Shown: positions 6,408 through 26,228, counted from the first letter of the stretch. The stretch: 64,000 nt of DNA from Caballeronia glebae (GCF_001545035.1 NZ_FCOJ02000011.1:1-64000); one strand, 5' to 3'. Made by a program: numbers and translations. Notes: generated by a model not told the origin, from the sequence alone.

Positions 6408-7564
6408 AGGCACGCGGCCCGTTCGCGATGTTCGCGCGCTTCTCCGTGACGCGCTGGTGGAGCATCGTCATCAAGGAGTTCCTGCAACTGCGGCGCGACC
6501 GCATCACGTTCGGCATGATCGTCGGCTTGCCGATCGTGCAACTGGCGCTCTTCGGCTATGCGATCAACACCGACCCGAAGCATCTGCCGACGGCCGTGAT
6601 CGTCGGCGATCAAAGCCCGTTTTCGCGCAGTTTCATCGCGGCGATGGAGCACTCCGATTATTTCGATATCGTCGGCACACTGCCCGACGACCAAGCCGGC
6701 CGCCGCGCCCTCGCGCAAGGCCGCGTGCTTTTCGTGCTCGACATTCCCGTCGATTTCTCACGCAAGCTGTTGCGCGGCGAGCGGCCCGCGCTGCTAGTCG
6801 AGGCGGATGCCACCGATCCGAATGCGGTGAGCAAGGCGAGCAATTCGCTCGCCGCGCTCGTGCAGTCCGTGGCTGACAAGGACTTGACCGGCCCGCTCGC
6901 ACGTTTGAACGCGACGCCCGCCGCATTCGACGTGCAAGTCCACAACCTCTATAACGCCGAAGGCATCACGCAATACAACGTCGTACCTGGTCTGATGGGC
7001 GTGATCCTCACGATGACGCTCGTCATGATGACCGGCCTCGCGATGACGCGCGAACGCGAGCGCGGCACGATGGAGAATCTGCTCGCAACGCCCGTGCGCC
7101 CCGTCGAAGTGATGACAGGCAAGATCGTGCCATACGTGTTCATCGGTCTCATTCAGGCGTCGATCATTCTCGCGGCCACGCGCTTCGTGTTTCACGTGCC
7201 GTTCGTCGGCAATCCGCTCGCGATCTATCTGGCCGCGCTGCTTTTCATCGCCGCGAATCTGACGGTGGGCATCACGCTGTCGTCGCTCGCGCAGAATCAG
7301 CTTCAGGCGATGCAACTGACCATGTTCTACTTCCTGCCGAACATTCTTCTGTCCGGCTTCATGTTCCCGTTCGCGGGCATGCCGGCATGGGCGCAATTCA
7401 TCGGCAATTTGCTGCCGCTCACGTACTTCAATCGCCTGATACGCGGCATTCTTCTCAAGGGTAACGGCTGGGCGGACCTGTGGCCTTCGGTCTGGCCGAT
7501 GGCGCTCTTCACCGTCATCGTGATGGGTATTGCGTTGCGCTTTTATCGGCGCACGCTCGATTAG
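6404..7564 (+). CDS. ABC-2 type permease of the efflux pump (YbhS/YbhR-like)
   Basis: Protein of 386 residues with ABC-2 architecture: one N-terminal membrane segment (about residues 35-55, reached after a short basic cytoplasmic stretch), a long periplasmic domain (about 60-185), then five hydrophobic segments to the C-terminus. The cytoplasmic motif TRERERGTMENLLATPVRP is the conserved loop of this family that contacts the ATPase. Only one permease gene is present, where E. coli has two (ybhS and ybhR), so a homodimer is expected. The start overlaps the ATPase stop as ATGA. Confidence 0.9.
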   Translation: MKARGPFAMFARFSVTRWWSIVIKEFLQLRRDRITFGMIVGLPIVQLALFGYAINTDPKHLPTAVIVGDQSPFSRSFIAAMEHSDYFDIVGTLPDDQAGRRALAQGRVLFVLDIPVDFSRKLLRGERPALLVEADATDPNAVSKASNSLAALVQSVADKDLTGPLARLNATPAAFDVQVHNLYNAEGITQYNVVPGLMGVILTMTLVMMTGLAMTRERERGTMENLLATPVRPVEVMTGKIVPYVFIGLIQASIILAATRFVFHVPFVGNPLAIYLAALLFIAANLTVGITLSSLAQNQLQAMQLTMFYFLPNILLSGFMFPFAGMPAWAQFIGNLLPLTYFNRLIRGILLKGNGWADLWPSVWPMALFTVIVMGIALRFYRRTLD

Positions 7565-7574
7565 GGAAACGTCG

Positions 7575-9014
7575 ATGAACAAGATTCTTCCCCTCTGCGC
7601 GCTCGTGTTGTGCGGCTGCACTGTCGGCCCCGATTTTCACGCCCCGCCGCCACCGGATACGCAGACTTACGTCAAGACGCCCGTGGCCGCGCAAGGCTTT
7701 CCAGCCGCCGATCACGCGTTGCCGCTCTGGTGGACGCAGTTCGGCTCCGACACGCTGAACCGTCTCGTCGATCGCGCATTGAGCGACAGTCCCACGCTCG
7801 ATCAAGCGCGCGCGAAGCTCGTGCAGGCGCGCGAAGACTATCGTGCGCAAGCGGGCGCGACGTACTTTCCCGCCGTCGATGCCTCGCTCTCCGGCACGCG
7901 TCAAAAGGTGGACCCCGCCGCGTTCGGCGTGCCCATTCCGAGCCCCGGGCCGTTCACGCTTTACGATGCATCCGTGAGTGTGTCTTACACGCTCGACGTT
8001 TTCGGCGGCGAGCGGCGAGCGCTCGAAGCATTGCGCGCGCAAGTGGATTACCAGTCGTTCGAGCTTGATGCGGCGCGGCTTTCGATCGCGGGCAATGTCG
8101 TTTCCACTGCTATCCGGCGCGCTTCGCTGCAGCAGCAGATCACGCTCACCGAGCGTCTCGTCGATGCGCAAGCCCGACAACTGTCGATCATGGAAGGCCG
8201 CCTGAACGCGGGTGGCGTGGCGCCCTTCGATGTGCGCAGCCAGCGCACGCTCGTCGAGCAAACGCGCGCGAGCCTTCCGTCGCTCGTTACGCAACGCGAT
8301 CAGGCCGATCACCGGCTTGCGGTGTTGCTGGGCGTCGAGCCATCCAAGGCCGACTTCGATGCGATCACGCTCGACTCGCTTCATCTGCCCGCCGACGTTG
8401 CGCTCACCTTGCCTTCGACGCTCGCACGCGAACGCCCCGATATCCGCGCATCGGAAGCATTGCTGCATCAGGCGAGCGCGAATGTGGGCGTGGCGACGGC
8501 CGATCTCTATCCGAAGTTTTCGCTCTCGGCGGGCGTGGGAACTCAGCGCACGAACATTCACGACATGCTCAATAGCCTGAACGTGTGGAACGTCGGCCTG
8601 AATTTGACGCAGCCGTTATTTCATGGCGGCGAACTGCGCGCGAAGAAGCGAGCGTCGGAAGCGGCCTACGATGCAGCCCTGCAAGCCTATCGACAGACCG
8701 TGCTGGACGCGTTGCAACAAGTCGCCGACAGCCTGACCGCGCTTCAAAACGACGCCGATGCAATTCGCGCGCGCGAAATCGCAGCGAACGAAGCGCAAGC
8801 CAATCTCGACACGACCACCGCACGTTACACGGCAGGCGGCGTGAGCCGCTTCGATCTGCTCGACACGCAACGTCAGGCGCTGCAGACTCAACTCGATTAC
8901 GCGCTCGCGCGAGCCAGCCGTCTTTCGGATACAGCCGCGCTCTTCCAGTCGCTGGGCGGCGCGGGCGAAGATATGAAAGCCGTAGGCAAACCGGTTGCAT
9001 CTGCAACTAATTAG
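7575..9014 (+). CDS. Outer-membrane efflux lipoprotein, NodT/OprM family
   Basis: Protein of 479 residues starting MNKILPLCALVLCGC, a lipoprotein signal with the lipid-attachment Cys at residue 15, followed by the family hallmark TVGPDF and LPLWWTQFG. Two outer-membrane efflux repeats follow; motifs such as ERPDIRASEALLHQASANVGVA mark the second repeat. It supplies the exit duct for the pump encoded just upstream, 10 bases away. The ATG at 7575 is chosen for the lipoprotein signal and the AGGGA 7 bases before it; the frame opens earlier inside the permease gene. Its stop codon overlaps the stop of the convergent synthetase gene. Confidence 0.92.
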   Translation: MNKILPLCALVLCGCTVGPDFHAPPPPDTQTYVKTPVAAQGFPAADHALPLWWTQFGSDTLNRLVDRALSDSPTLDQARAKLVQAREDYRAQAGATYFPAVDASLSGTRQKVDPAAFGVPIPSPGPFTLYDASVSVSYTLDVFGGERRALEALRAQVDYQSFELDAARLSIAGNVVSTAIRRASLQQQITLTERLVDAQARQLSIMEGRLNAGGVAPFDVRSQRTLVEQTRASLPSLVTQRDQADHRLAVLLGVEPSKADFDAITLDSLHLPADVALTLPSTLARERPDIRASEALLHQASANVGVATADLYPKFSLSAGVGTQRTNIHDMLNSLNVWNVGLNLTQPLFHGGELRAKKRASEAAYDAALQAYRQTVLDALQQVADSLTALQNDADAIRAREIAANEAQANLDTTTARYTAGGVSRFDLLDTQRQALQTQLDYALARASRLSDTAALFQSLGGAGEDMKAVGKPVASATN

Positions 9015-10536
9015 CGAGCCGTCCAAGCCGATGCTTGAGCACCTTGCCGCTCGCGGACACAGGCAATGCGTCGAGTATGCGAATCGAAGAAGGACGCTTG
9101 TAGGGCGCGAGCCGCTCGCCGACCCACTCCGCGAGTTCGCGTTCGTTCGCCGCGCAATCACGCCTCAATTCGACGAACGCGAGCACGTCCTCATTGCCTT
9201 GCACGCTTCGTCCGATCACGGCGGAATGCAACACGGCGGGATGACTGTTGAATGCCTGCTCCACTTCGGCGGGATACACGTTGAAACCCGAGCGGATGAT
9301 GAACTCCTTGCTGCGCCCGACGATATACAGATTGCCGCTCTCGAAGCGCGCGAGATCGCCGGTCTTGAGCCAGCCGTCCTCCGTCACCGTGGCCGCCGTT
9401 TGCGCCGCATCGCGGTAATAACCGAGCATCACGTTCGGGCCGCGCACCCATAGCTCGCCGGGATCGTCGGCGCCGCCTTGATGCGCGAGCGGCACAATGC
9501 GCGCCTCGACGCCGGGAATCAACGGACCGACAGACGAATCGCGCGCGGGCGCATCGAGCAGCGTGTTCGATACGGTCGGGCTGCTTTCGGTCATGCCGTA
9601 ACCGTTATGCAAGGGCACGCCGTAGAACGCCTCGGCAGCGGTCTTGAGCGACATGTCGAGTGGCGAGCCGCCGCAATAGACGAAGCGCAGCGATGGCGCA
9701 TTCAAGCCACCGCGCGGCGTGAAATGGTCGATCAGTTTTGCATGCATCGCGGGAACGCCCTGAAAGATCGTCATGCGTTCATCGCTAAGCACGCGTCCCG
9801 CGCGTCCGGCGTCGAAACGCGCCGCGAGACGCAGCGTCGCGCCCGCATACAGCGAACCGAGACACATGGATGCAAGACCGAACACATGCGAGATCGGCAG
9901 GACAGCATAGACGCGATCGCTGGAAACGACGCGACGCAGCGTGCTCGACACGGCCGCGACAAACAAAAGATTGCGATGCGACAGCATCACGCCCTTCGGC
10001 TCGCCTGTCGTTCCCGTCGTATAGATAAGCGCGGCGCATTGCTCGTCCGATGGCAGACCGTGCGGCTCCTGTTCGGAAGCTGCATCGATCTTGCCTAATG
10101 CAAACGCGCCGATGGGCGTCGCATCGAGCGATTCGACGCGGGCGCCGTCGCGTTGCGCATGATGCGCGGCATCGTCGGAGGTTTCGACGGTATAGAGCGC
10201 GATGCGCGGCCTGGCGTGCGCGCGGATCGCATCGAGTTCGACAGTGGACAATCGCGCGTTCGCGATGAGCGCCCATGCATCGAGACGACTTGCGGCAAAG
10301 AGCGATGCGACGAGCGCGACGCCGTTCTCGCCGATCAGCATGACGCGATCGCCGGGCCGCACACCCGCTACCGCGAGACGCGTGGCGAGCGCATCGACGG
10401 CATCGTCGAGTTGCGCATAGGTCAGCGTATGCGCGTCGTCATGCAATGCGATGTGATCGGGATGCGCCTTCGCGCCGCGCGAGACGATCGCGTCGATGCG
10501 CGCGGGCAGCGACGCGATGAGCTGTTTCGTATCCAT
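9007..10536 (-). CDS. Acyl-CoA synthetase (AMP-forming), class I adenylate-forming enzyme
   Basis: Protein of 509 residues that should activate a carboxylic acid to its acyl-CoA through an acyl-adenylate. Visible motifs are the P-loop TTGTTGEPKG (residues 173-182), the YGMTES adenine-binding motif, the TGD hinge region, and the catalytic lysine in SASGK (Lys498). Length and order are typical. Specificity is unknown. It is the last of ten same-strand genes and starts 50 bases after the SMP-30 gene, so it may belong to that operon and could activate the acid released by the pathway. The ATG at 10536 fits the family's usual N-terminus; the frame extends upstream without similarity. Confidence 0.88.
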   Translation of the reverse strand: MDTKQLIASLPARIDAIVSRGAKAHPDHIALHDDAHTLTYAQLDDAVDALATRLAVAGVRPGDRVMLIGENGVALVASLFAASRLDAWALIANARLSTVELDAIRAHARPRIALYTVETSDDAAHHAQRDGARVESLDATPIGAFALGKIDAASEQEPHGLPSDEQCAALIYTTGTTGEPKGVMLSHRNLLFVAAVSSTLRRVVSSDRVYAVLPISHVFGLASMCLGSLYAGATLRLAARFDAGRAGRVLSDERMTIFQGVPAMHAKLIDHFTPRGGLNAPSLRFVYCGGSPLDMSLKTAAEAFYGVPLHNGYGMTESSPTVSNTLLDAPARDSSVGPLIPGVEARIVPLAHQGGADDPGELWVRGPNVMLGYYRDAAQTAATVTEDGWLKTGDLARFESGNLYIVGRSKEFIIRSGFNVYPAEVEQAFNSHPAVLHSAVIGRSVQGNEDVLAFVELRRDCAANERELAEWVGERLAPYKRPSSIRILDALPVSASGKVLKHRLGRLAN

Positions 10537-10586
10537 GTCGTGCGATATCGTTCGTGACTCCAAGGCCGCATGATAACGCTCAGGCG

Positions 10587-11489
10587 CTATCCCGCGAAAC
10601 GCGGTTCGGGAATGCCGCGCACGCCGACGCCCGTCACCGCGAACAGGCCGCCCTTGTCGCGCTCCTTCTGCGGAATGCCCCACATCGGGCGGCCCATCGT
10701 CGATACATAGAGGATGTCGAGATTCGGCCCGCCGAACATCACGCTCGTCAGATTGCGCACCGGAAACGGCACGATGCGATCGAGCCTGCCGTCGGGTGCG
10801 AAGCGCAGAATGCGCCCGCCGAACACGAGCGCGGACCACACATAGCCTTCCTCGTCGACGGTCGCGCCATCGAACGTGCCCGCCATGTCATGCGCGGATG
10901 CGAACAGGCGCTTGTTCGTCGCCGCACCGGTTTCGATGTCGTAATCGTAGGCGTACATCTCCTTGCTGTACGTGTCGGTGAAGTAGAACGTCTTGTTGTC
11001 GGGGCTCCAGCATGGACCGTTCGAGCAACTGATGCCGCTGTCGAGCCGCGTGACCCTGCCATCCGTATCGAGCCGGTAAAGCCCGCCGCTGCGCGTCGAG
11101 CGCTGACCGCGATCCGCGTCGTAGCGGTCGAAGTCGTAAGCCATGGTGCCGGCGATAAAACGGCCCCGTCGATCCACCTTTCCGTCGTTGAAGCGCGTCT
11201 CGGGATCGTCGCTTTCGGGATCGGCGATGAACTGCACGGTCTGCGCTTCGAAGTCGTAGAAATGCAGGCCGTTCGCGAGCGCGACTACCGCGCCGCCTTG
11301 CTCGCGCAACGCCATCGAGCCGATGTGACGCGGCACGAAATAGCGCTTCACGTCGCCGCCGTCCGCGCGGCAGCTATAGATTTCCGCGGCGGTGCTGTCG
11401 ATCCAGTACAGCCGTTCCTCCTTCACGTCCCAGAGCGGTCCTTCGCCGAGGTGATTGTTCGCATCGACCAGCAAGCGTACTTCGGCCAT
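10587..11489 (-). CDS. SMP-30/gluconolactonase family lactonase
   Basis: Protein of 300 residues with a six-bladed propeller expected. Metal-binding and catalytic positions of the family are recognisable: Glu16 in LGEGPLW, Asn and Asp in RFNDGKVD, Asn in ISCSNGPCW and Asp in FTDTYSKEMYAYDYD. Members hydrolyse aldonolactones or other sugar lactones in the cytoplasm and need a divalent metal. Within the operon it would open the lactone made by a sugar dehydrogenase. It starts 15 bases after the dehydrogenase gene. Confidence 0.9.
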   Translation of the reverse strand: MAEVRLLVDANNHLGEGPLWDVKEERLYWIDSTAAEIYSCRADGGDVKRYFVPRHIGSMALREQGGAVVALANGLHFYDFEAQTVQFIADPESDDPETRFNDGKVDRRGRFIAGTMAYDFDRYDADRGQRSTRSGGLYRLDTDGRVTRLDSGISCSNGPCWSPDNKTFYFTDTYSKEMYAYDYDIETGAATNKRLFASAHDMAGTFDGATVDEEGYVWSALVFGGRILRFAPDGRLDRIVPFPVRNLTSVMFGGPNLDILYVSTMGRPMWGIPQKERDKGGLFAVTGVGVRGIPEPRFAG

Positions 11490-11504
11490 CGTCGTCTCCT
11501 TTGG

Positions 11505-12449
11505 TCAGGCTTCACCGTCTTCGATATCGCGCCGATGCGCGAGCAGCGCCATCAGACGGCGATCGCGCCAGCGGCTGCGTTCTTCGATCTGCTCGCGCGG
11601 CAGCACCGCGCGGCGTTCGGCATCGAGCTTGCCGAGCGTCTCGGCGGACCAGTCGAACGGCAGGCGTCCCGCAGCGATGCTCTTGTACGTGCCGCCGTAG
11701 CGCGCGGCGTAGTCGGCCACGCCGCCTGGCGCGTTCAGGTCGATCGTTTCGAATGGCCCCATGAACGACCAGCGCATCGCGAGTCCATCGCGTATCACGG
11801 TGTCTAGATCGGCGGCGCTCGCATAACCTTGCTCGTACAGACTCAGCGCCTCGTCGAGCAATGCGCCTTGCAGACGATTGAGCAGAAAGCCCGAGATCTC
11901 GCGATTGACGGTCACGGGTTTTTGCCGTGCTTCTTCGTAGACGGCGCGAGCGCGTTCCATCGTGTCCCGCGAAGTCCACGGCGCGCCGCACAACTCGACG
12001 AGCGGCACGAGCGACGGCGGATTCACCGGATGCGCAACGAGGCAGCGCGCGCGGCCGTCGATGCCTTCCGTGAACATCGATGCCGGCAAACCCGATGTCG
12101 AACTCGCAAGAATCGAATCGGGCTTCGTGAGCCGGTCCAGTTCGATGAACAACGCGCGCTTCGCCTCCACCACTTCCGCGATGTTCTCCTGCACGAGATC
12201 GGCCTCGGCGACGGCATCGGCGAGGTGTTCGCGTGCGGTGATGCGAGACACGACCGTATCGACGGATTCATCGATCAGATCGAACGACGCTAGATCCTGC
12301 ACGCTCTCGCGGATCGCGGGAATCGCGCCGTCGAGCATCGCCTTCGATGCATCGTGGATCGTCACGTCGAAGCCGCTCTTCGCGAAGACGATCGCCCACG
12401 CGCGGCCGATGCGGCCCGAACCGATCACCGCAATGTTTTTCGCTTGCAT
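11505..12449 (-). CDS. 3-hydroxyacyl-CoA-dehydrogenase-fold beta-hydroxyacid dehydrogenase (carnitine dehydrogenase / CRYL1-like)
   Basis: Protein of 314 residues with an N-terminal Rossmann fold (GSGRIG, residues 10-15), the conserved SSTSGLP and AHPVNPP segments, and the C-terminal dimerising domain (GFLLNRLQGALLDEA). Single-chain relatives of this length are L-carnitine 3-dehydrogenase and L-gulonate 3-dehydrogenase (CRYL1), which oxidise a free 3-hydroxy acid to the 3-keto acid, rather than the fatty-acid enzymes. The neighbouring BKACE gene, whose family cleaves beta-keto acids, supports that reading. Substrate is not determinable here. It lies 26 bases after the fused permease gene. Confidence 0.85.
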   Translation of the reverse strand: MQAKNIAVIGSGRIGRAWAIVFAKSGFDVTIHDASKAMLDGAIPAIRESVQDLASFDLIDESVDTVVSRITAREHLADAVAEADLVQENIAEVVEAKRALFIELDRLTKPDSILASSTSGLPASMFTEGIDGRARCLVAHPVNPPSLVPLVELCGAPWTSRDTMERARAVYEEARQKPVTVNREISGFLLNRLQGALLDEALSLYEQGYASAADLDTVIRDGLAMRWSFMGPFETIDLNAPGGVADYAARYGGTYKSIAAGRLPFDWSAETLGKLDAERRAVLPREQIEERSRWRDRRLMALLAHRRDIEDGEA

Positions 12450-12475
12450 CTGTATCTGGTCCTCGTTCGAGTTGG

Positions 12476-14575
12476 TTAGCCCTTCTTGTCCCGCAACGTG
12501 ATGACCGCCGCCAGCACGACGAGTCCGTTGATGATGTCGCGCACCGCCGGCGGCACGGTGGTTCCCGCGAGCAAGGTCCCGAGCGCGGTGAGCAACAACG
12601 CGCCGCCGAACACGCCGAGATAGTGCCCGCGTCCGCCTGTGATCAATGCGCCGCCGACGACCACCACGGCAATCGACGGCAGCAGATACGGATCGCCCAT
12701 GCCGAGAAACGCTTGCGAACTAAATCCGGCGAGCAGCAGGCCGACGATCGCCGAGCACAGACCCGAGAGGCAATACACGGCGATCAGCGTCGTGCCGACT
12801 CGCACGCCCGACAGCTTCGCCGCGACCGGCGAATTGCCGAGCGCATACACGCGCCGGCCGAACGGCGTGCGATGCAGCAGCAGCAATGCGATCACGAGAA
12901 ACACCGGCACGCTCCACGCCGCGAGCGACAGCGGTCCGAAGCGCTCATTGGTGAATTCGCTGATCGTCGCTGGCGACCATCCCTGCGGCGAGCCGTTGCA
13001 ATAGATGAGCGTCAGGCCTTGCAGCAAGCCGTTCGCCGCGAGCGTGACGACGATCGGCGGCAAGCCGAGCATCACGACGCCCACGCCGTTGAACACGCCG
13101 ACGAGCAAGCCGACGACGAGCACCAGCGGCACCGCCCACGCGGCCGCGCCGTTCACGCCGTGCGTGAGTCCCGTCAACAGCACGCCGGATAGCGTGATGA
13201 GCCAGGGCATCGACAAGTCGAGTCCCCCCGTCAGGATCACCGCGCCCTGGCCCAGACCAAGAATCGCGAGAAACAAGGTCAACGTGAGCAGGCTGCTATA
13301 GAAGTTCGCGCTGACGAGCACGCCCGGGCCATAAACGAAGCCCGTGATGATCACCACTGCAAAGAACAACACATAAGCCGGCACGACATATTTGACCCAT
13401 TCGCGATTGCGCTCGATCCAGTCGGCAATCGGGCGGCCCTTAAGCTCCGTGTTCTCGACCGGCCGAAAATCGTCGACTTCGAACGCAACGCGCCGGGCAT
13501 TTTTGTCGTCGCGTGCGCGCGTGCCCGTTCGCACCGCCTTGAGCCACTGCGCCGCGTGACGCGCGCATTCGTGCGCCGCGGATTGCTTGCCGATCGACGA
13601 ACCGAGCACCGCGAGAATCAGGATCACCGCTTCGGCAATCGTTGTGAAGAACGCCGATACGTTCAGCACGAGCAGAATGTTCACGGTGATCATCAGCGTC
13701 ATGGCGGCGAACACGGTGCCGACGCAACCGCCTCGTCCGCCGCCGAGCAGCGTGCCGCCGAGCACGACCGCCGTGAACATCGAGAGCAGAAGCGGACGGC
13801 CGACTAGCGGATCGGCCGAACCCGTCTGCGCCGATACATAGAGACCCGCCGCCGCGTAGAACATGCCCGCGAGCGCGTAGGTCGCGATGCGATAGCGCGT
13901 GACCGGCATGCCGTTCGCGTAGGCGCCGTCCGGGTCGCTGCCGAGCGCGTAGAGACCCACGCCGAAACGCGTGCGCTTGATGAACGACCAGATCAGCAAC
14001 GCGAGAATCAGCAAGGCCGCCGACATCGGCATCTTGTCGGGGATGAGATCGGCGGTGAGCACCGCGCCGAACTGGTCGCCGACGCTGCCGCCCGGCTTGT
14101 TCTGAATCAGCAGCGTGAGGCCTTGCACCATGAACATCGTCGCGAGCGTGACGACGATCGATTGCAGGCGAAACCATGCGATCAACGCGCCGTTCACGAG
14201 CCCGATGCCGCCGCCGATCGCGAGAATGAGCGCGGCGCCGCCCCATTGCTCGACGGGCGATCCCTGCACGAAGCGCACGGCGAGCACGTTCGCGAGCGAC
14301 ACGACCGCCGACGCCGACAGATCGAAGCCGCCCGACAACACGACGATGGTCTGCCCGATCGCCGCGAGCGCGAGCGTGGCCGAGCTCGAAATCACCGATC
14401 CGATGTCGTAGAGCCCGACGGGTGTCGCGGACAGCGCGACCCATCCGGCGAGCATCGCGAGCAACGCGCTGATCGCGATGATGAGCCCGCGATGATGATC
14501 GATGCGCGCGCCCAATCCCAGGCGCGCGCCCGGCCGCACGATCTCGCTATCGGGCGACGCAACGGCTATCTTCAT
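12476..14575 (-). CDS. Fused double-permease of a sugar ABC importer (two RbsC-like domains)
   Basis: Protein of 699 residues holding two complete RbsC/BPD_transp_2 domains in one chain. Domain 1 is about residues 20-335 (motifs GGFDLSASAVVSLANV and GGTLLGGGRG); domain 2 is about 400-699 (GGLDLSMPWLITLSG and GGALITGGRGHYLGVFGG). A hydrophilic, charged linker of about 60 residues joins them and should lie in the cytoplasm. The single uninterrupted frame shows no sign of a recent frameshift. RbsC-type importers normally use two permease chains, so this protein alone could form the channel. The ATG at 14575 (GAGAGG 6 bases upstream) is preferred over the in-frame TTG at 14581. Confidence 0.88.
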   Translation of the reverse strand: MKIAVASPDSEIVRPGARLGLGARIDHHRGLIIAISALLAMLAGWVALSATPVGLYDIGSVISSSATLALAAIGQTIVVLSGGFDLSASAVVSLANVLAVRFVQGSPVEQWGGAALILAIGGGIGLVNGALIAWFRLQSIVVTLATMFMVQGLTLLIQNKPGGSVGDQFGAVLTADLIPDKMPMSAALLILALLIWSFIKRTRFGVGLYALGSDPDGAYANGMPVTRYRIATYALAGMFYAAAGLYVSAQTGSADPLVGRPLLLSMFTAVVLGGTLLGGGRGGCVGTVFAAMTLMITVNILLVLNVSAFFTTIAEAVILILAVLGSSIGKQSAAHECARHAAQWLKAVRTGTRARDDKNARRVAFEVDDFRPVENTELKGRPIADWIERNREWVKYVVPAYVLFFAVVIITGFVYGPGVLVSANFYSSLLTLTLFLAILGLGQGAVILTGGLDLSMPWLITLSGVLLTGLTHGVNGAAAWAVPLVLVVGLLVGVFNGVGVVMLGLPPIVVTLAANGLLQGLTLIYCNGSPQGWSPATISEFTNERFGPLSLAAWSVPVFLVIALLLLHRTPFGRRVYALGNSPVAAKLSGVRVGTTLIAVYCLSGLCSAIVGLLLAGFSSQAFLGMGDPYLLPSIAVVVVGGALITGGRGHYLGVFGGALLLTALGTLLAGTTVPPAVRDIINGLVVLAAVITLRDKKG

Positions 14576-14585
14576 GAGCAACCTC

Positions 14586-16097
14586 TCAACTGGAAAGCAT
14601 CTTGCGCATCACGTTTTCTTCGGTCAGCGCGTCGCCGGTCAACTCGCCGGCATTGCGCCCGCGATACATCACCGAGACGCGGTCGCATACGTTGACGAGT
14701 TCGGGCACGTCCGTCGAATAGAAAAGCACGGAGCCGCCCGCCGCCGCGAACGCGCGCATCAACACGAAGATCTGATGCTTGGTGCCGACGTCGATGCCGC
14801 GCGTCGGATCGAACATGAGCCACACGCGACTTTGCGTGAGCAGCCACTTGGCCATCGCGATCTTCTGCTGATTGCCGCCGGAAAACGACAGGCACGGCTT
14901 GTATAGCGCGCGCGGATTCACTTCCATCTGCGCGAGCGCGCGACGGATCGCGGCCTGCTCGCGACGGCGATCGATGAGGCCGAAGCGCGCATAGCGGCCG
15001 ATCACCGGAAGCGATACGTTCTCGCCGCCGGGCAAGCGCAGGAACAGGCCTTCGGTCTTGCGGTCTTCGGGCAGAAAGCTCGTCGATACGCCGGCCTTGA
15101 GCGAATCCGCCGTCGATGTCAGCGTGACCGGCCGGCCGTCGATGCGAATCTCGCCATCGTCGATGTAGGTCGCGCCGAACAGCGCCTCGAAAAGCTCGCG
15201 TTGCCCCATGCCCTGCAGCGCCGCGATGCCGTGCACTTCGCCCGGCTTCACGGCGAGATCGAAATCGGTGACGACGCCATCGACGCGAACGTTGCGCGTC
15301 TCGATCGCCGGCGTCGCATCGCTTTGCACCGACGTGACCTTCGGCGGATACTTCGCCTCCATCGAACGGCCGATGACGAGACGGATCACTTCGTCGTCCG
15401 ATATATCGGTGGCATCGAACGCGCCCACGTCGCGGCCATTGCGATACACCGTGAGGCTGTCGCAGAACTCGCGCACTTCCTGCATGCGGTGCGAGATGAA
15501 CACGAAGGTGACGTCTCTCGCCTTCAATTCGTCGATGCGCCTCGAAAGCCACGCGACATCGCGACCCGACAACGCCGAAGTCGGTTCATCGAGCAGCAGC
15601 ACTTTCGGGCCGCGCACGATCGCCTTCGCAATCTCGATCTTCTGTCGAACGGGCAACGAAAGATCGCGGATATACGCGCCGGGACGCACGTCGGAGAGTT
15701 CGAGCTTGTCGAGCCATTCCGCCGCTTGCCGCTGCGCTTCGCGCTTCTTGATGCGCCCGAGAAAGCCGGTCGGCTCATACGACAGCAACAGGTTCTGCGC
15801 GACCGTGAGATCGCGCACGAGCGTCATCTCCTGAAACGCGGTCTGCACGCCCGCGCGATGCGCGTCCTTCGGGCTCTTCATCGTCACGTCGCTGCCCATC
15901 ACGCGGATACTGCCCGCGTCGGGCTGCATCAATCCCGACAGCAGCTTGACCGTGGTGGACTTACCCGCGCCGTTCTCGCCCAGCAGCGCATGCACCGCGC
16001 CGCGCTTCACCGAGAACGACGCGCCATCGAGCGCGACGGTCGCGCCGAAGCGCTTCGTCACCTTCGACAGATCGATCGCCAATGATGCATCGTTCAT
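14586..16097 (-). CDS. Sugar ABC transporter ATP-binding protein (RbsA/XylG-like)
   Basis: Protein of 503 residues with two nucleotide-binding domains, the usual arrangement for carbohydrate importers of the RbsA class. The first has Walker A GENGAGKST (about residues 40-48), LLLDEPTSAL and SHRMQEV. The second has a degenerate Walker A region (ALQGMGQREL), signature FSGGNQQK and Walker B LMFDPTRGIDVG, with Asp-Pro in place of the common Asp-Glu-Pro; such asymmetry is common in this class. The ATG at 16097 has GGAGG 7 bases upstream; the GTG at 16103 would sit almost on the ribosome-binding site. It precedes the permease by 10 bases. Confidence 0.9.
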   Translation of the reverse strand: MNDASLAIDLSKVTKRFGATVALDGASFSVKRGAVHALLGENGAGKSTTVKLLSGLMQPDAGSIRVMGSDVTMKSPKDAHRAGVQTAFQEMTLVRDLTVAQNLLLSYEPTGFLGRIKKREAQRQAAEWLDKLELSDVRPGAYIRDLSLPVRQKIEIAKAIVRGPKVLLLDEPTSALSGRDVAWLSRRIDELKARDVTFVFISHRMQEVREFCDSLTVYRNGRDVGAFDATDISDDEVIRLVIGRSMEAKYPPKVTSVQSDATPAIETRNVRVDGVVTDFDLAVKPGEVHGIAALQGMGQRELFEALFGATYIDDGEIRIDGRPVTLTSTADSLKAGVSTSFLPEDRKTEGLFLRLPGGENVSLPVIGRYARFGLIDRRREQAAIRRALAQMEVNPRALYKPCLSFSGGNQQKIAMAKWLLTQSRVWLMFDPTRGIDVGTKHQIFVLMRAFAAAGGSVLFYSTDVPELVNVCDRVSVMYRGRNAGELTGDALTEENVMRKMLSS

Positions 16098-16118
16098 CGT
16101 CACGCCTCCGCCCCGATC

Positions 16119-17246
16119 TCAGTCCTGATTGCCCGTGAGCGCCGCGTTGAAGCCCACTTCCTTCGTGTCTTCAGAGTAGATGTCGGCGAACCAGCCCGGC
16201 GGCACCTTGTCCGGCGGGAACGCGGTGCAGCCCGCCTTCAGTTCGTCGATGCTGCCGGTCTTGCAAAGCTTCGATTCCGAGGTCAGCACGAGCGGCAGCT
16301 TGAGCGTCACGCGCGCCGGAAAGTCGCCACCGTCGAGCTTCTTCACGGCCATCTTGAGCGCCATTGCGCCGGAGTACGGAGGCGCGCCGTAAGAGATCGA
16401 GCGATAGCCGATCGAGCGATAGCCGCCCTGTCCCTTCACTTCGCCCGGCGGCAGCATCTGCACGCGATGCCCGTTCGACGATTCGCCCGCGCACGGCTTG
16501 ATCTTGTCGTCGGCGATGCCCGCTTCGAGCTGCATCGACGCCGCCGTGAAGCAGCCCACCTGCATCCACAGGCCGTCGATCTTGTCCCAGCTATTCGTCG
16601 CGAGAATCTTCGAAAGCTCGGTCTTCGCGGTCGCCTGACTCCACATGCCGGTTCCTTCCGCGACGATCTTGATCCCCGGATACTTCGCGAACACGGCCTT
16701 GGCCGCTTCGGTGCGCGCGCGGTCGACCGACGTGCCCGGCACACCCGTGATCATCACGACATTGCCCTTGCCGTTGATGGTCTTCGCGAGCCATTCGGCG
16801 GTGACGGTGCCGGCCTGATGCTGATCGATCGTCACGTTGTGCGCGCACGGCTCGGTCACTTCGCCGTCATACGCCGCGACGACGACGCCCTTCGAGCACG
16901 CGTTCTTGATCGCGCGATTGAGCGCCGTCGGCGAGATCGGATAGATGACGATGGCCTTCGCGCCCGCCTGCACCATCGAGTTGATCTGCTGGATCTGCTT
17001 CTGCGCATCGGTGCCCGCGACCTGCACTTCGAGATCGACCTTGTCCTTCAGGCCCGGCGTATTGGCCATTGCCTTGACCATGTTCGCGGCTTCCGTCTGC
17101 CAGTCGTTGCCGACATAGCTCATCGACAAGAAGATCTTGTATTTGCCGGCCGCGTGCGCCGTGCCCGAGACGGCGAGCGCCGCTGCGAATGCGAGGCCGA
17201 GCGCGGCCCGTCCCGCATGACGAATCGACTGCGTCAATGCTTTCAT
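16119..17246 (-). CDS. Periplasmic sugar-binding protein of the ABC importer (RbsB/peripla_BP_4-like)
   Basis: Protein of 375 residues with a signal peptide (cleaved after AHA, about residue 32) and a type I periplasmic binding fold: FLSMSYVGNDWQ near the start, NSMVQAGAKAIVIYPISPTALN, and the hinge GVPGTSVDRARTEAAK. Several cysteines may form disulfides in the periplasm. GGAGGA lies 4 bases before the ATG. Residues GYRSI occur twice in a row, from a perfect 15-base tandem repeat (16395-16424). The ligand is unknown, but neighbouring enzymes suggest a sugar or sugar acid. Confidence 0.9.
   Translation of the reverse strand: MKALTQSIRHAGRAALGLAFAAALAVSGTAHAAGKYKIFLSMSYVGNDWQTEAANMVKAMANTPGLKDKVDLEVQVAGTDAQKQIQQINSMVQAGAKAIVIYPISPTALNRAIKNACSKGVVVAAYDGEVTEPCAHNVTIDQHQAGTVTAEWLAKTINGKGNVVMITGVPGTSVDRARTEAAKAVFAKYPGIKIVAEGTGMWSQATAKTELSKILATNSWDKIDGLWMQVGCFTAASMQLEAGIADDKIKPCAGESSNGHRVQMLPPGEVKGQGGYRSIGYRSISYGAPPYSGAMALKMAVKKLDGGDFPARVTLKLPLVLTSESKLCKTGSIDELKAGCTAFPPDKVPPGWFADIYSEDTKEVGFNAALTGNQD
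16395..16424. repeat. Perfect 15-base tandem duplication inside the binding-protein gene
   Basis: Two adjacent copies of GATCGAGCGATAGCC. The repeat is in frame and duplicates GYRSI in the protein close to a GAPPYSGA segment. Confidence 0.9.
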
Positions 17247-17286
17247 GTCTTCCTCCGGTCTTCGTATGGTTATGAAGCGAGCGCTT

Positions 17287-18060
17287 CTAACTTCGGATGT
17301 GCGGCAGACGAGCGCTCGCGGGCAGAGCGATGCCCGCGCTGCCGGGCACGACATTCGGGTCGTGTCCGGGTATGACGAAATCGGCGATCTGGCGAATGCG
17401 CGAAAGCGAGCCGATCTCCGCGAGCGTTTCATACACGATGCCCACGGGCACGAGATCGACGACGTTCTCCATGCAGTTCGCGCAATCGCCCGCGATCAGC
17501 ACGACACCTTCTTCCGTATCGACCGCGACGGACTGATGCCCCGGCGTATGACCCGGCGTCGGCACGACGCGCACGCCGGGCACGATATCGGTCACGCCGT
17601 TCACGAACTGCCAGCGGAAATACGCGAGCGGCTCGCGGCCGATCAGAAACTCCTGGTAGTACGTGGCCTGCGTGGGCAGTGGATGCCCCGCGTATTCCCA
17701 CTCGGCCGCCTGCACGATAAAGCGCGCGTTCTTGAAGAGCGTGTTGCCGCCGGAATGGTCGTAATGCAGATGCGTGTTGATGACGATATCGACGTCATCC
17801 GCGCTCCAGCCGACGTACTCCTTCAACGCGCGTTCGAGCTTCTCCTCGGGCGCCTGATCGCACGGGCACACGAAGTTCGACACCCAGCCCGGATCGTGTA
17901 TGCCCGTATCGACGACAATCTTCTTTTGCGCGCCGACGATCGCCGTGGACCATACCGGCACCTTGATCTGCTGGCCGAAATAGCGGCCGTACACTTGCGA
18001 CGAGCGATCGACGGTGAGCCAGCCCGTCGGCATCGCGACTACTTTCAGCTTGGCGCTCAC
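17287..18060 (-). CDS. Metallo-beta-lactamase fold lactonase (AHL-lactonase AttM/AiiB-like)
   Basis: Protein of 257 residues with the di-zinc motif HLHYDH (His97, His99, Asp101, His102) followed by later ligands in PGHTPGH, AGDCANC and PGHDP. No signal peptide, so cytoplasmic. Length and motif spacing agree with the N-acyl-homoserine-lactonase group, whose members open homoserine lactones or gamma-butyrolactone-type rings. In this operon, between the BKACE and importer genes, a role on a pathway lactone is at least as likely as quorum quenching. Start spacing to the upstream BKACE gene is 14 bases. Confidence 0.82.
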   Translation of the reverse strand: MSAKLKVVAMPTGWLTVDRSSQVYGRYFGQQIKVPVWSTAIVGAQKKIVVDTGIHDPGWVSNFVCPCDQAPEEKLERALKEYVGWSADDVDIVINTHLHYDHSGGNTLFKNARFIVQAAEWEYAGHPLPTQATYYQEFLIGREPLAYFRWQFVNGVTDIVPGVRVVPTPGHTPGHQSVAVDTEEGVVLIAGDCANCMENVVDLVPVGIVYETLAEIGSLSRIRQIADFVIPGHDPNVVPGSAGIALPASARLPHIRS

Positions 18061-18074
18061 GATGCCCTCCGTTA

Positions 18075-19007
18075 TCAGAAGTTGGTGTCGCTCGCGCCCT
18101 TGAGCTTGAGCATCTCGCGTGCTTCGGCGGGCGTCGCGATATCGAGCGAGAGTCCTTCGATCACCTGGCGGATCTTGCGCACCTGCGCCGCGCTCGATTC
18201 AGCGAGCTTGCCCGGCTCGATCCACAGCGAGTCTTCGAGGCCGACACGCACGTTCGATCCCTGCGCGACGCCCATGGAGCCGAGCGGAATCTGGTTGCGC
18301 CCCGCGCCGAGAATCGACCACACATAATCGCCGCCGAAGAGACGATCCGCCGTGCGTTTCATATGCGCGAGATCCTCGGGATGCGGCCCGATGCCGCCGA
18401 GCAGACCGAACACGCTCTGCACGAAGAACGGCGGCTTCGCGAGCCCGCGATCCACGAAATGCGCGAGGTTGTAGAGATGCGAGATGTCGTAGCACTCGTA
18501 CTCGAAGCGCGTGCCGTTCGCGCTGCACGACGTGAGGATGTATTCGATATCCGCGAAGGTGTTCTTGAACACGAGATCGCGGCTGTTCTCCAGATGCTTG
18601 CGCTCCCACTCGTACTTGAATTCCTTGAAGCGCTCCAGCATCGGATACAAACCGAAATTCATCGAGCCCATGTTGAGCGATGCAACTTCGGGCTTGAAAT
18701 GATGCGCGGGCTTCAATCGCTCCGCCACCGTCATGTGCGGACTGCCGCCCGTCGTAATGTTGATCACGGCGTCGGTCTCGGCCTTGATGCGCGGCAAAAA
18801 CTCCTGAAACACGGCGGGGTCCTGCGTCGGATGACCATCGTTGGCATCGCGTGCGTGCAGATGCAGGATCGCGGCGCCTTCCTTCGCGGCCGCGAGCGCC
18901 GCATCGCCGATCTGTTGCGGCGTGAGCGGAAGATAAGGCGACATCGAAGGCGTATGGATCGCACCCGTCGGCGCGCACGTGATGATGACCTTGCGTTTCG
19001 TTGCCAT
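18075..19007 (-). CDS. Beta-keto acid cleavage enzyme (BKACE, DUF849)
   Basis: Protein of 310 residues of the 3-keto-5-aminohexanoate cleavage enzyme (Kce) family. The zinc-binding HLHARD motif is at residues 49-54, and the barrel continues through ITTGGSPHMTV and the late GSNVRVGLEDSLW segment, all typical. Known members react a beta-keto acid with acetyl-CoA to give acetoacetate and a new CoA ester. One characterised BKACE cleaves 3-dehydrocarnitine and is paired with carnitine dehydrogenase. The dehydrogenase-like gene at 11505-12449 in this operon recalls that pairing. The exact substrate cannot be read. Confidence 0.88.
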   Translation of the reverse strand: MATKRKVIITCAPTGAIHTPSMSPYLPLTPQQIGDAALAAAKEGAAILHLHARDANDGHPTQDPAVFQEFLPRIKAETDAVINITTGGSPHMTVAERLKPAHHFKPEVASLNMGSMNFGLYPMLERFKEFKYEWERKHLENSRDLVFKNTFADIEYILTSCSANGTRFEYECYDISHLYNLAHFVDRGLAKPPFFVQSVFGLLGGIGPHPEDLAHMKRTADRLFGGDYVWSILGAGRNQIPLGSMGVAQGSNVRVGLEDSLWIEPGKLAESSAAQVRKIRQVIEGLSLDIATPAEAREMLKLKGASDTNF

Positions 19008-19022
19008 GTGAGCCTCGTTGTT

Positions 19023-19829
19023 TTAAAGGACTTCCACGTTGCCGCAGACCGAGATCGCCTGACCCGAGATGCCGCTGCCCGCGGGCGAGCACAGAAAGAG
19101 CGCCGTAGCGGCGACTTCCTCGGGCGTCGTCATGCGGCGCAGCGAAATCTTCGCGAGATATTGCTTCTCCATCTCTTCATACGAGAGGTTCAGTTGCTGT
19201 GCGCGCGCCGCGATCACGCGTTCGATGCGCGGCCCTTTCACGATGCCCGGCTGTATCGCATTGACGCGAATGTTCGACGGCCCCAGCTCGATCGCGAGAC
19301 TCTTGGTCATGCCGACGACGGCCCACTTCGTCGCGGCATAGGGCGTGCGAAACGCATAGCCGAGCCGCCCCGCCACCGACGACAGCGCGATGATCGTCCC
19401 GCCGTCGTGCGCGTCGCGCAAGAGCGGCACCGCGCGGCGCGCGAAGTAGAACTGCGCGTTCAGATTCACGTCGACGGTCTGTTCCCACTCGTTCGCGTCG
19501 AGCTCGTCGATACCGCCCGTCGGCCCCGCGATGCCCGCGTTGTTCACGAGCACGTCGAGTCCGCCGAGTTCGCGCTCCACGTCGACGAACACGCGCTCGA
19601 CGGCTTCCTTGTCCGAGACATCGGCAAGTGTCGACGTGATCGCATTGCACTCCGCGCTCGCTTCGGCTTTCGTCAATTCATCGATCGCTTCGGGACTCGC
19701 ATCGCAGACATGCACCCGCGCGCCCGCATCGATGAACGCGCGCGCGATCACGAGCCCGATGCCCGATGCGCCGCCCGTGATGAGCACGCGCAACCCCGCG
19801 TGCGGTTTCAGCATCTGAAGGACCGTCAT
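19023..19829 (-). CDS. Short-chain dehydrogenase/reductase
   Basis: Classical SDR of 268 residues: cofactor motif TGGASGIG (residues 18-25), NNAG (96-99), catalytic Ser150/151, Tyr164 and Lys168 (YAATK). Asp43 after the second strand (VCDAS) favours NAD over NADP. The sequence between the catalytic residues and the C-terminus is typical of sugar or hydroxy-acid SDRs. As the first enzyme gene after the regulator, it could oxidise a sugar to the lactone that the SMP-30 protein hydrolyses. GGAG is 6 bases before the ATG. Confidence 0.9.
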   Translation of the reverse strand: MTVLQMLKPHAGLRVLITGGASGIGLVIARAFIDAGARVHVCDASPEAIDELTKAEASAECNAITSTLADVSDKEAVERVFVDVERELGGLDVLVNNAGIAGPTGGIDELDANEWEQTVDVNLNAQFYFARRAVPLLRDAHDGGTIIALSSVAGRLGYAFRTPYAATKWAVVGMTKSLAIELGPSNIRVNAIQPGIVKGPRIERVIAARAQQLNLSYEEMEKQYLAKISLRRMTTPEEVAATALFLCSPAGSGISGQAISVCGNVEVL

Positions 19830-19855
19830 GCATGTCTCCGTTTTTGTTGTAAGGC

Positions 19856-20566
19856 TCAGGCGCTCGCTTCACTGCTCAGTTCGCCGCTTTGCAAACGCTC
19901 CTGCAGATCGGCGGCCGCATCGCCGATGTCTTCCTCGATACCGGCGCGCGCACCTTCACCATCGCCACGCCAGAGCGCTTCGACGATATGACGATGCGCC
20001 GCCATCGAACGGCGCATATGCGGGATGTCGGGTGCGACGAGATTCAGAAACGGGCCGATGCGCATCCAGAGGTTCTGGATCGTCGCGAGCGTGAGATCGC
20101 TCGCGCCGTGCGTATAAATAGCGATGTGGAATTCGAAGTTGCTGCGCAGATAAGCGGGCACGTCGCCGGCTTCGACATGCGCGTCCATCGTGTCGAAAAT
20201 CGCCTGCAGCGCGTCGAGATGCGCGCGCGTCATGCGCGATGCCGCGCGTTTCGCGACCGCGCCTTCCAGTGCGATGCGCACGTCGCGCAGTTCGTCGAGC
20301 AGGTCGAGGGTCATCGGCGGGACCATCAGCGCGCGGCCGGGACCGTCGATCAATGCGCCTTCCGCCTGTAAGCGCGTGAGCGCCGCGCGCACGGGCATGG
20401 TCGATGAGCCGACCGCTTCCGCGACGCTGCGCAAGCTGAGCAACTGTCCGGGCGCGAAGCGGCCCGTCATGATCGCTTGCCTCAACTGCGCATAGACGCG
20501 GCCAGCCATAGTTTCGCGTGCAACTAATTCGAGCGCGGGTAAGTCCGTCGTCGAGCGTGTCGCCAA
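19856..20566 (-). CDS. GntR-family (FadR/FCD) transcriptional regulator
   Basis: Regulator of 236 residues with a winged helix-turn-helix at about residues 15-80 (SLRSVAEAVGSSTMPVRAALTRLQAEGAL) and a C-terminal all-helical FCD effector domain. The metal-binding pattern appears as NFEFHIAIY, with Asn in place of the common Asp, then AHRHIVEAL. I start it at TTG 20566, because GGAGG lies exactly 6 bases upstream; the frame opens further left without a ribosome-binding site. As first gene of the operon it most likely represses the nine genes behind it and itself until a pathway compound binds. Confidence 0.85.
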   Translation of the reverse strand: MATRSTTDLPALELVARETMAGRVYAQLRQAIMTGRFAPGQLLSLRSVAEAVGSSTMPVRAALTRLQAEGALIDGPGRALMVPPMTLDLLDELRDVRIALEGAVAKRAASRMTRAHLDALQAIFDTMDAHVEAGDVPAYLRSNFEFHIAIYTHGASDLTLATIQNLWMRIGPFLNLVAPDIPHMRRSMAAHRHIVEALWRGDGEGARAGIEEDIGDAAADLQERLQSGELSSEASA

Positions 20567-20611
20567 CTTATGCCTCCGTTCTTTCGTTCGGCTGCTGCGA
20601 TACTTCCGATT

Positions 20612-20632
20612 GGTGTGACCTGTGATCACACC
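20612..20632. promoter_or_regulatory. Inverted-repeat operator upstream of the GntR gene
   Basis: Arms GGTGTGA (20612-20618) and TCACACC (20626-20632) flank 7 bases; the right half also contains the perfect palindrome TGTGATCACA. It lies about 45 bases before the start of the regulator gene, where an autoregulatory FadR-type site is expected. The TGTGA/TCACA arms also resemble a CRP site, but with 7 bases between them instead of 6. Confidence 0.5.
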
Positions 20633-20705
20633 TGCATGACTAAAGTGTCGGACGCGCGAGTGCGTGAGTCAACCTTGAATTGCTAGGTGAAAACGCGGAG
20701 GCGGA

Positions 20706-25847: not shown

Positions 25848-25868
25848 GGAGTCGTTGGCATACGGCAC

Positions 25869-26228
25869 TCAGGCCGTGCCGCCCCTCGAAAGGAGCGCCA
25901 TGCCCTTCTCCACGTTGAGCGCGGTGCGCACGCCCGAGAGCGTGAGGCCGAGTTCAACGAGCGTGATCGCGACCGAAGGCTGCATGCCGACGACGACCGT
26001 CTCGGCATCGAGCACGCGCGCCATCGCGGCCGTGTTGCCGATCATTCGTCCGATGAACGAATCGACCACGTCGAGCGAGGAAATGTCGATGAGCACGCCG
26101 CGCGCACCGTCCTTCACGATGCGGCCCGTCAAGTCGTCCTGCAGCGCGAGCGCGAGCCGGTCGTGCATGTCGACCTGAATGGTGACGAGCAAGAGCTTGC
26201 CCATCGTGAGAATCGGAATGCGTTCCAT
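25869..26228 (-). CDS. rsbS: RsbS-like STAS-domain stressosome core protein
   Basis: Protein of 119 residues consisting of one STAS domain. The segment ISSLDVVDSFIGRM aligns with Bacillus RsbS around its phosphorylated Ser59, here Ser57. RsbS forms the scaffold of the 1.8-MDa stressosome with RsbR and holds RsbT until phosphorylated. It sits between rsbR (62 bases upstream) and rsbT. Confidence 0.92.
   Translation of the reverse strand: MERIPILTMGKLLLVTIQVDMHDRLALALQDDLTGRIVKDGARGVLIDISSLDVVDSFIGRMIGNTAAMARVLDAETVVVGMQPSVAITLVELGLTLSGVRTALNVEKGMALLSRGGTA

Follow-up and report, generated by a model that had tools for sequence, protein, structure and literature searches.

What compound does the ten-gene operon described here take up, and by what route is it degraded? 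The operon lies in a stretch of 64,000 nucleotides from Caballeronia glebae (GCF_001545035.1, NZ_FCOJ02000011.1:1-64000), which we call the window. It encodes a GntR/FCD regulator, a short-chain dehydrogenase (SDR), a beta-keto acid cleavage enzyme (BKACE), a metallo-beta-lactamase-fold (MBL) hydrolase, an ATP-binding cassette (ABC) importer with its substrate-binding protein (SBP), a 3-hydroxy(acyl) dehydrogenase (HCDH), a lactonase of the SMP-30/gluconolactonase family, and an AMP-forming acyl-CoA synthetase (ACS). We propose that the operon takes up and degrades the lactone of a 2-deoxyaldonate-type 3-hydroxy acid, the likeliest being a 2-deoxypentono-lactone or its open acid (2-deoxyribonolactone or a stereoisomer). 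We give this proposal about an even chance, and the substrate class is fairly well indicated. We infer the reactions and the substrate from gene content, gene order, conservation, a conserved upstream site, and linkage to product-processing families, all of which were observed directly.

The ten open reading frames are all on the minus strand (20629 to 9007), are free of internal stops, and are tightly packed. If the ATPase and permease genes are taken from their longest starts, the gaps from gntR to the synthetase gene are 26, 15, 14, 40, 15, 4, 26, 15, and 50 bases. Pfam profiles confirmed every named family (GntR/FCD, SDR, BKACE, Lactamase_B, Peripla_BP_4, ABC_tran, BPD_transp_2, 3HCDH, SGL for SMP-30, and AMP-binding). 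The ten consecutive genes on one strand that the original prediction had described from the sequence alone were thus confirmed. A pattern scan found five terminator-like sites, against 8.7 +/- 3.6 expected by chance, of which four are on the operon strand, each within a gene. It also found one promoter-like site, on the opposite strand, against 2.0 expected. Because both kinds of site are rarer than chance, the scans neither split the operon nor prove it to be a unit.

Comparison of gene neighborhoods across genomes bore out the predicted unit. We examined 79 loci found by BKACE similarity, which represent the best 80 of 252 confirmed matches and under-sample distant relatives. In 37 of them, gntR-sdr-bkace-mbl-sbp-ABC-permease-hcdh-smp30 stand in the same order on one strand, and this nine-gene order is therefore beyond chance. 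One nine-gene operon (L059) is 71 to 90% identical to the window's at the protein level. The synthetase (9007..10536) is present in the window. However, only 9 of the 37 full operons have it and 28 lack it. Therefore, it is an optional member outside the conserved unit. Two loci hold the importer with an incomplete gene set (L049, cut at the locus edge, and L057, without an hcdh hit). Another 17 hold sdr-bkace-MFS, 16 of these with gntR in the locus, and 8 hold sdr, hcdh, and bkace without the importer, 2 of these with the synthetase. The remainder have hcdh and bkace (3), sdr and bkace (3), or bkace alone (9). SMP30 is found in 38 of the 39 importer-bearing loci; the exception is again the truncated L049. 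Two loci (L011 and L012) keep sdr-bkace-hcdh-acs in a neighborhood similar by gene lengths, and the importer and lactonases are missing from them. Uptake and ring opening therefore look like a separable module. The window's own genome also holds a second, broken copy of the operon (L089; C164, 9288-19245) with a shortened SDR and a split permease, in which we did not find gntR or hcdh; an ECH_2 gene lies downstream of it and a fragment of an acyl-CoA synthetase upstream.

The families of the conserved unit fit the predicted import of a sugar-like compound, lactone opening, formation of a 3-keto acid, and BKACE cleavage. A route in which the lactone yields a 3-hydroxy acid and then a 3-keto acid for BKACE is, in our view, probable. 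First, the CUT2 ABC importer would bring in the ring form. The SMP-30 protein, the MBL protein, or both would then open the ring to a 2-deoxyaldonate. The SDR, as the main C3-dehydrogenase, would oxidize C3 to give the 3-keto acid, and the HCDH may catalyze this oxidation in parallel, perhaps with the opposite C3 epimer as its substrate. BKACE would next use acetyl-CoA to yield acetoacetate and glyceryl-CoA; for glyceryl-CoA as the product, we put the chance a little below even. Finally, a hydrolase would free glycerate, a glycerate kinase would convert it to phosphoglycerate, and acetoacetate would be turned into acetyl-CoA. This last step would be served by genes elsewhere in the window organism and by genes of the same cluster in the rhizobial relatives. 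The ACS could provide optional activation of an acid.

The BKACE (18075..19007, minus strand) scores 356 bits against PF05853 (cut-off, 24.8) and carries HLH and GLEDS motifs, which we take to be its zinc and catalytic residues. It matches PDB 3E49, of the same family, at 571 bits. BKACE15 of Paracoccus denitrificans (PDB 8RIO, 8RIP, and 9HNF) also belongs to this family; the window enzyme matches 8RIO at 449 bits and conserves the BKACE15 residues E171 and R254. A survey of BKACE substrates was reportedly made by Bastard et al. in 2014. The genomic context of BKACE15 is said to suggest aromatic degradation, unlike that of the window operon (PMC11961710). In a phylogenetic tree, the window BKACE falls in a clade of 27 rows with 99% support, together with those of a Rhizobium plasmid (L207) and an alphaproteobacterial contig (L086); the latter branches first, and the 26-row rest has 82% support.

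The original prediction had taken the SDR (19023..19829, minus strand; Pfam adh_short_C2, with a YAATK motif) as the lactone-forming step. This reading is not supported. Its nearest functional relative is the SDR of a deoxyribonate-type cluster in the same genome (L090; 60% identity), whose published counterparts oxidize deoxyribonate (PMC6365646). In the tree, however, the window SDR is in a separate 98% clade of seven rows beside a 98% deoxyribonate-type clade of seven rows, each with one duplicated row. The window SDR groups with SDRs that are mostly linked to BKACE, and of its 25 best models, that of a broad FabG subfamily is the only one whose cut-off it reaches. A role as a sugar 1-dehydrogenase is therefore not supported, and the SDR is better read as a putative 2-deoxyaldonate (3-hydroxy-acid) 3-dehydrogenase than as a lactone-forming sugar dehydrogenase. 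The nearest solved relative of the HCDH (11505..12449, minus strand), the proposed second C3-dehydrogenase, is lambda-crystallin (201 bits). Of the 79 loci, 45 (the 37 full operons plus the 8 that lack the importer) have both dehydrogenases alongside BKACE, a number that rises to 47 when L049 and L078 are counted. This pairing suggests that the substrate may come in two stereochemical forms.

The proposed route follows a published logic. In the oxidative deoxyribonate pathway of Price et al. (2019; PMC6365646), an SDR oxidizes deoxyribonate and a BKACE cleaves the product to acetoacetate and glyceryl-CoA, the latter being a proposal made there without direct evidence. Glycerate kinase mattered for the growth of four bacteria, and acetoacetate activation and a thiolase for that of P. 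bryophila (PMC6365646). A putative operon of Pseudomonas simiae holds an SDR, a BKACE, and a lactonase together (PMC6365646). Therefore, the predicted view that lactonases are foreign to the known BKACE route was too strong. The window's SMP-30 protein matches this lactonase-in-operon arrangement, although the passages searched in PMC6365646 do not state whether the fold is shared. The window operon resembles the pathway in the proposed SDR oxidation at C3, in the BKACE, and in having a lactonase, as in P. simiae; glycerate kinase and acetoacetate activation downstream may be a further likeness, their candidate genes being linked to the operon in relatives. It differs in its regulator (GntR, whereas the P. 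bryophila cluster has AraC) and in its transporter (a CUT2 ABC importer, in contrast to MFS transporters; the term "ABC transporter" is absent from PMC6365646). It also has an extra MBL hydrolase and a PRK06129-type HCDH, and its SDR and BKACE are in clades separate from the deoxyribonate-type enzymes. The original prediction is partly supported, and the operon would follow the oxidative deoxyribonate logic with another importer, regulator, and lactonase set. Among the listings and passages that we examined in the PMC full-text literature, from which most subscription papers are missing, no paper deals with this operon.

The deoxyribonate-type cluster of the window's own genome (L090) is arranged as AraC|BKACE-MFS-SDR. 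Three further loci (L148, L149, and L238) have this type of cluster with an additional 246-aa SDR-type gene between MFS and SDR. Their gene order equals the published P. bryophila order gene for gene (PMC6365646), a match by gene order and identity.

The informative relatives came from a search with the SBP rather than with the BKACE. On Agrobacterium (L206) and Rhizobium (L207) plasmids, the order is GntR|SBP-ABC-fused permease-SDR-HCDH-BKACE-SMP30-chemoreceptor. In L206, the chemoreceptor gene is followed by genes for a glycerate kinase and an ECH_2 protein. In L207, it is followed by nickel racemase genes, glycerate kinase, ECH_2, CoA-transferase A/B, and thiolase, with one opposite-strand regulator gene separating ECH_2 from CoA-transferase. 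The ECH_2 proteins belong to the 3-hydroxyisobutyryl-CoA hydrolase subfamily (426 and 445 bits; cut-off, 274), and the kinases, annotated as glycerate kinase, have DUF4147 and MOFRL domains. On an alphaproteobacterial metagenome-assembled contig (L086), BKACE, SDR, and glycerate kinase genes follow each other with gaps of 6 and -4 bases, the kinase being named by its 48% identity to the Rhizobium kinase. The linkage of kinase and ECH_2 in these relatives points to glyceryl-CoA and acetoacetate as products and, hence, to a 2-deoxypentonate or its lactone as substrate. ECH_2 genes also occur in the L220 and L221 clusters, besides the one at the broken copy L089. Since glyceryl-CoA hydrolase is listed as unknown in PMC9007349, the ECH_2 protein is a candidate for it. 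The racemase genes of L207 (10601-14638) encode a nickel-pincer racemase LarA and the maturation proteins LarB and LarC, with a gene for an adenine nucleotide alpha hydrolase between those two, and they lie between the chemoreceptor and kinase genes. LarA scores under the listed NCBIfam cut-offs; it is perhaps a glycerate racemase.

The same search showed how the system is spread. At an E value of ≤1e-60, the SBP is rare in an even sample of the phylum: 5 of 398 genomes have it, and that of the window is among them. In one genus (g116, taken to be Pseudomonas), 51 of 146 genomes have an SBP match (E ≤ 1e-80). Among 18 importer loci hand-picked from these 51 genomes, 13 are of a GntR type, GntR|SBP-ABC-PERM-SDR-HCDH-BKACE-SMP, of which two carry a second SMP gene; 3 belong to an AraC type, differ in gene order, and show no SMP hit, and 2 have other enzyme sets. 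The Rhizobium SBP, to which the window SBP is 62% identical, finds 7 of 296 genomes in family f48, taken to be Rhizobiaceae (E ≤ 1e-110). Of 72,556 plasmid records, 13 match the SBP at E ≤ 1e-50, comprising 4 from Caballeronia, 3 at 63 to 66% identity, and 6 weaker ones. These weaker matches are below 60% identity; in the three that we inspected (L203, L204, and L205), no BKACE is annotated in the stretch. A Phyllobacterium operon has two SMP30 genes and no kinase/ECH_2 tail. A BKACE match at E ≤ 1e-100 occurs in 46 of the 58 genomes from the window's genus, but this threshold also lets in the 60% identical deoxyribonate-type paralogue.

Several points weigh against a 2-deoxypentonolactone. 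No glycerate kinase, ECH_2 hydrolase, or CoA-transferase gene lies within the window operon. The window genome has one PF02595 (GarK-type) glycerate kinase (C113; 398 bits), unlinked to the operon, and we did not find a MOFRL-type kinase in it. Among 228 loci, many of them short, MOFRL-type kinases occur only in L086, L206, and L207, of which the last two are close relatives; GarK-type kinases were not sought in these loci. The rhizobial kinases themselves score under the NCBIfam glycerate 2-kinase cut-offs (257 to 258 bits versus 550, and 165 to 166 versus 670). A thiolase was detrimental on deoxyribonate in B. phytofirmans (PMC6365646). The importer family also occurs with other enzymes and without BKACE in the locus (L197 and L219), and 3 of the 18 g116 importer loci show no SMP30, against 15 that have it. 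BKACE enzymes are promiscuous (PMC4922564; PMC11961710), and BKACEs of the window's own clade stand in other contexts, for example with acyl-CoA dehydrogenases in L107. The BKACEs of L090, L149, and L150 lie in another clade (11 rows; 95%), which does not include the window BKACE, although identity between the window operon and L090 is 60% for the SDR and 60% for the BKACE. Because of these separate clades, and because the genome already has a deoxyribonate-type cluster, the substrate may well differ from deoxyribonate.

The same chemistry could serve a six-carbon 2-deoxy- or 2,6-dideoxy-hexonolactone, derived from the deoxysugars of glycosides, with BKACE releasing a four-carbon hydroxyacyl-CoA. 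BKACE15, the nearest BKACE that we found with published substrates, takes six-carbon acids such as 5-hydroxy-3-ketohexanoate (PMC11961710), the genome has a separate deoxyribonate-type cluster (L090), and the MBL protein and second dehydrogenase suggest a substrate beyond plain deoxyribonate. However, L206, L207, and L086 have glycerate-kinase-type genes next to the operon or next to its core, and we regard the hexonolactone as unlikely. More doubtful is a hexanoate oxygenated at C3 and C5, or its lactone (triacetic acid lactone or 3,5-dihydroxyhexanoate lactone), cleaved to acetoacetyl-CoA and acetoacetate. The window BKACE passes the NCBIfam model NF053538, named 3,5-dioxohexanoate:acetyl-CoA acetone transferase (558 bits; cut-off, 430), and a different BKACE does such a cleavage in phloroglucinol breakdown (PMC10470551). 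However, the model also takes the deoxyribonate-type L090 BKACE (510 bits) and the Agrobacterium L206 BKACE (534 bits). Its name therefore does not discriminate and carries no substrate information here. A glycerate kinase would have no role in such a route, and the sugar-type importer and SMP-30 lactonase fit it poorly.

The presence of the synthetase also raises a CoA-dependent route, in which the ACS would convert the hydroxy acid to its CoA ester and the HCDH would act on that ester, a scheme put forward for Klebsiella michiganensis (PMC6365646). The K. michiganensis deoxyribonate cluster shares CoA synthetase, lactonase, and dehydrogenase functions with the window operon, and its glycerate kinase is a likeness to the rhizobial relatives, not to the window. 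However, it has no BKACE and uses CoA esters and a thiolase instead (PMC6365646). Such a route would agree with L011 and L012, where ACS and HCDH are kept together and importer and lactonases are missing. However, the window operon has no thiolase, ACS is missing from most full operons, and in the compared g116 and rhizobial loci we found no match to it at 1e-20. Moreover, the BKACE family acts on free keto acids. We consider this route improbable. Among its best 25 NCBIfam models, the window ACS passes no cut-off.

The operon encodes the parts of a CUT2 sugar ABC importer, namely a Peripla_BP_4 SBP (16119..17246), a double ATPase with ABC_tran in two stretches (14586..16103; AraG/RbsA-like but under the NCBIfam cut-offs), and a permease pair fused into one gene of 701 aa with BPD_transp_2 in two stretches (12476..14581), all on the minus strand. 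The fused permease is a single gene of 675 to 717 aa in the compared importer loci that reach it, except for the broken L089 copy. Comparison of the SBP with solved binding-protein structures gave no answer about the substrate, the best match being a putative transporter protein at 94 bits. The SMP-30 protein (10587..11489, minus strand) scores 272 bits against SGL (cut-off, 26.3), has regucalcin as its nearest solved relatives, and has no NCBIfam match at 1e-5. It carries GEGP, SNG, and FDG motifs, which presumably hold metal ligands, as in regucalcin.

Two other importer loci deserve mention. In L197 (3842-16918), importer and SMP30 genes stand with genes for an NADH:flavin oxidoreductase, E1 and E2 parts of a 2-oxoacid dehydrogenase, and a zinc alcohol dehydrogenase, perhaps another use of the imported compound. 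In L198 (1-10014), the importer genes are on two strands, with SMP30, BKACE, SDR, and a DRL catalytic domain protein.

The MBL protein (17287..18060, minus strand) has the Lactamase_B profile with HLHYDH at residue 97 and may be a lactonase or an acyl-CoA hydrolase. If it hydrolyzed the acyl-CoA after BKACE, the SMP-30 protein would be the sole lactonase, a sub-question compatible with the 2-deoxypentonolactone proposal. Its gene immediately follows bkace, a thioesterase (L235, L236, and L237) or an ECH_2 hydrolase is found in other BKACE clusters, and the 13 GntR-type g116 loci show SMP-30 but no MBL; the glyceryl-CoA hydrolase listed as unknown in PMC9007349 would be a place for it. However, its sequence relatives are N-acyl homoserine lactone (AHL) lactonases and 4-pyridoxolactonase, which leaves this role rather unlikely. 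The same relatives invite the reading that MBL quenches quorum sensing by degrading AHLs and that the operon uses the acyl part. AiiA is the best NCBIfam model (131 bits), and AiiA structures are the best PDB matches. However, the score is below the AiiA cut-off of 375, the importer is of the CUT2 sugar type, and the core occurs without MBL in other lineages. Quorum quenching is therefore very improbable.

A BKACE next to a carnitine-dehydrogenase-like fold also recalls the degradation of carnitine or another betaine, and the original prediction had set the operon apart from the carnitine system. Our results agree with it. The window HCDH scores 444 bits against PRK06129 (cut-off, 347) but only 165 and 153 bits against two carnitine models (cut-offs, 592 and 414). 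The genome has a separate carnitine locus (L091), where the HCDH scores 621 bits for PRK07066 (cut-off, 414) and adjoins a choline-type binding protein (436 bits; cut-off, 379). That locus shares with the operon a BKACE adjoining an HCDH-fold dehydrogenase, but its HCDH passes the other model, its BKACE is 30% identical to the window's, and it has the choline-type binding protein where the operon has lactonases and a sugar importer. In a tree of 40 rows (SH-aLRT support from a short search, with the deepest forks open), the window HCDH does not cluster with carnitine dehydrogenase, which lies in another part; it falls in a 29-row group with 82% support. Every row of this group has BKACE in its locus except L222, L203, and the window's own short rows. 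A carnitine or betaine substrate can be set aside as the least credible of the alternatives.

Three loci (L180, L181, and L182) hold a hybrid cluster, with an AraC regulator (40 to 41%) and an SDR (58%) like the deoxyribonate-type ones, a CUT2 importer, a BKACE, and an HCDH nearest the carnitine one (42 to 44%); L181 has a cupin as well. A Mesorhizobium ciceri locus (L203, 8899-14969) has a distant binding protein (40%), a gene annotated as histidinol dehydrogenase, an N-acyl homoserine lactonase family protein, and an HCDH that groups with the window HCDH. Rhizobial plasmids (L235, L236, and L237) combine BKACE-SDR with hydantoinase/oxoprolinase genes, a thioesterase, and an ABC importer of the branched-chain type; in the tree, the BKACEs of L235 and L237 are placed close to the carnitine BKACE.

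How might the operon be controlled? The sequence TGTGATCACAGGTCACA (20614..20630, minus strand) is a candidate GntR operator. Of 40 loci that hold gntR, SDR, BKACE, and SBP (L025 and L101, both counted, are one species), 39 have it without mismatch immediately upstream of gntR. The fortieth, L049, has one copy in the locus. Within two mismatches, the site occurs at only two places in the whole 7.84-Mb genome, and a reversed control gave none. The second place, with two mismatches, precedes a paralogous gntR-sdr-bkace-MFS cluster (C127, L088, 8580-12485). Because these are the only two near-matching sites, the operon and this cluster are probably one small regulon, in which GntR would repress through a shared operator. 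The MFS protein of the paralogous cluster is best matched by the D-galactonate transporter subfamily (290 bits), under its cut-off of 395. The core TGTGATCACA lies upstream of gntR in all 18 gntR-sdr-bkace-MFS loci, but only 4 of these 18 match the full 17-mer with at most one mismatch. In 12 loci of other lineages that we checked (L087, L103, L105, L166, L167, L194, L195, L200, and L206-L209), no sequence came within two mismatches of the site, which thus belongs to the Burkholderiaceae version.

The conserved site also bears on gene starts. A GTG start of gntR at 20629, the end of the longest reading frame, falls within the site. The start is therefore more likely the TTG at 20566 (19856..20566, minus strand), a position drawn from alignment of the upstream regions. 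By eye, these regions share a candidate -35 box upstream of the operator (TTGACT at 20667..20672, minus strand): all 14 aligned regions have TTGA, and 13 have TTGAC; the automatic promoter scan did not list it. We corrected the SBP start to 17246, which removes the overlap of MBL and SBP, and the ACS start to the ATG at 10536, the query having carried three extra upstream codons.

Next to the operon, an efflux set (HlyD, ABC ATPase, ABC-2 permease, and OEP) on the plus strand (4510-9014) is convergent with it, and the end of the OEP outer-membrane efflux gene overlaps the operon's last gene by 8 bases. Directly upstream, on the minus strand (20706-27208), lies a stressosome-like signaling set with RsbRD_N+STAS, STAS, two HATPase proteins (one with SpoIIE), a histidine kinase, and a kinase with receiver domains. 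In other operon-bearing loci, the upstream genes vary in length and strand.

Deoxyribonate has been proposed as the natural substrate of the oxidative pathways, with DNA oxidation as one source of deoxyribonate or its lactone (PMC6365646). As a tentative extension, the clusters may form a system for 2-deoxypentonolactones of more than one stereochemistry in Burkholderiaceae, rhizobia, and probably Pseudomonas. Such a system would have an ABC importer for the lactone, two C3-dehydrogenases (SDR and HCDH) for two C3 epimers, a BKACE yielding glyceryl-CoA, a glyceryl-CoA hydrolase of the ECH_2 family (or, in Burkholderiaceae, the MBL protein), and, in Rhizobium, a nickel racemase for L-glycerate. 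The automatic BKACE names (3-keto-5-aminohexanoate cleavage protein and 3,5-dioxohexanoate transferase) tell little about the substrate. Relatives of the operon occur in other plant- and soil-associated bacteria, and the clusters offer a concrete candidate importer, regulator site, and glyceryl-CoA hydrolase.

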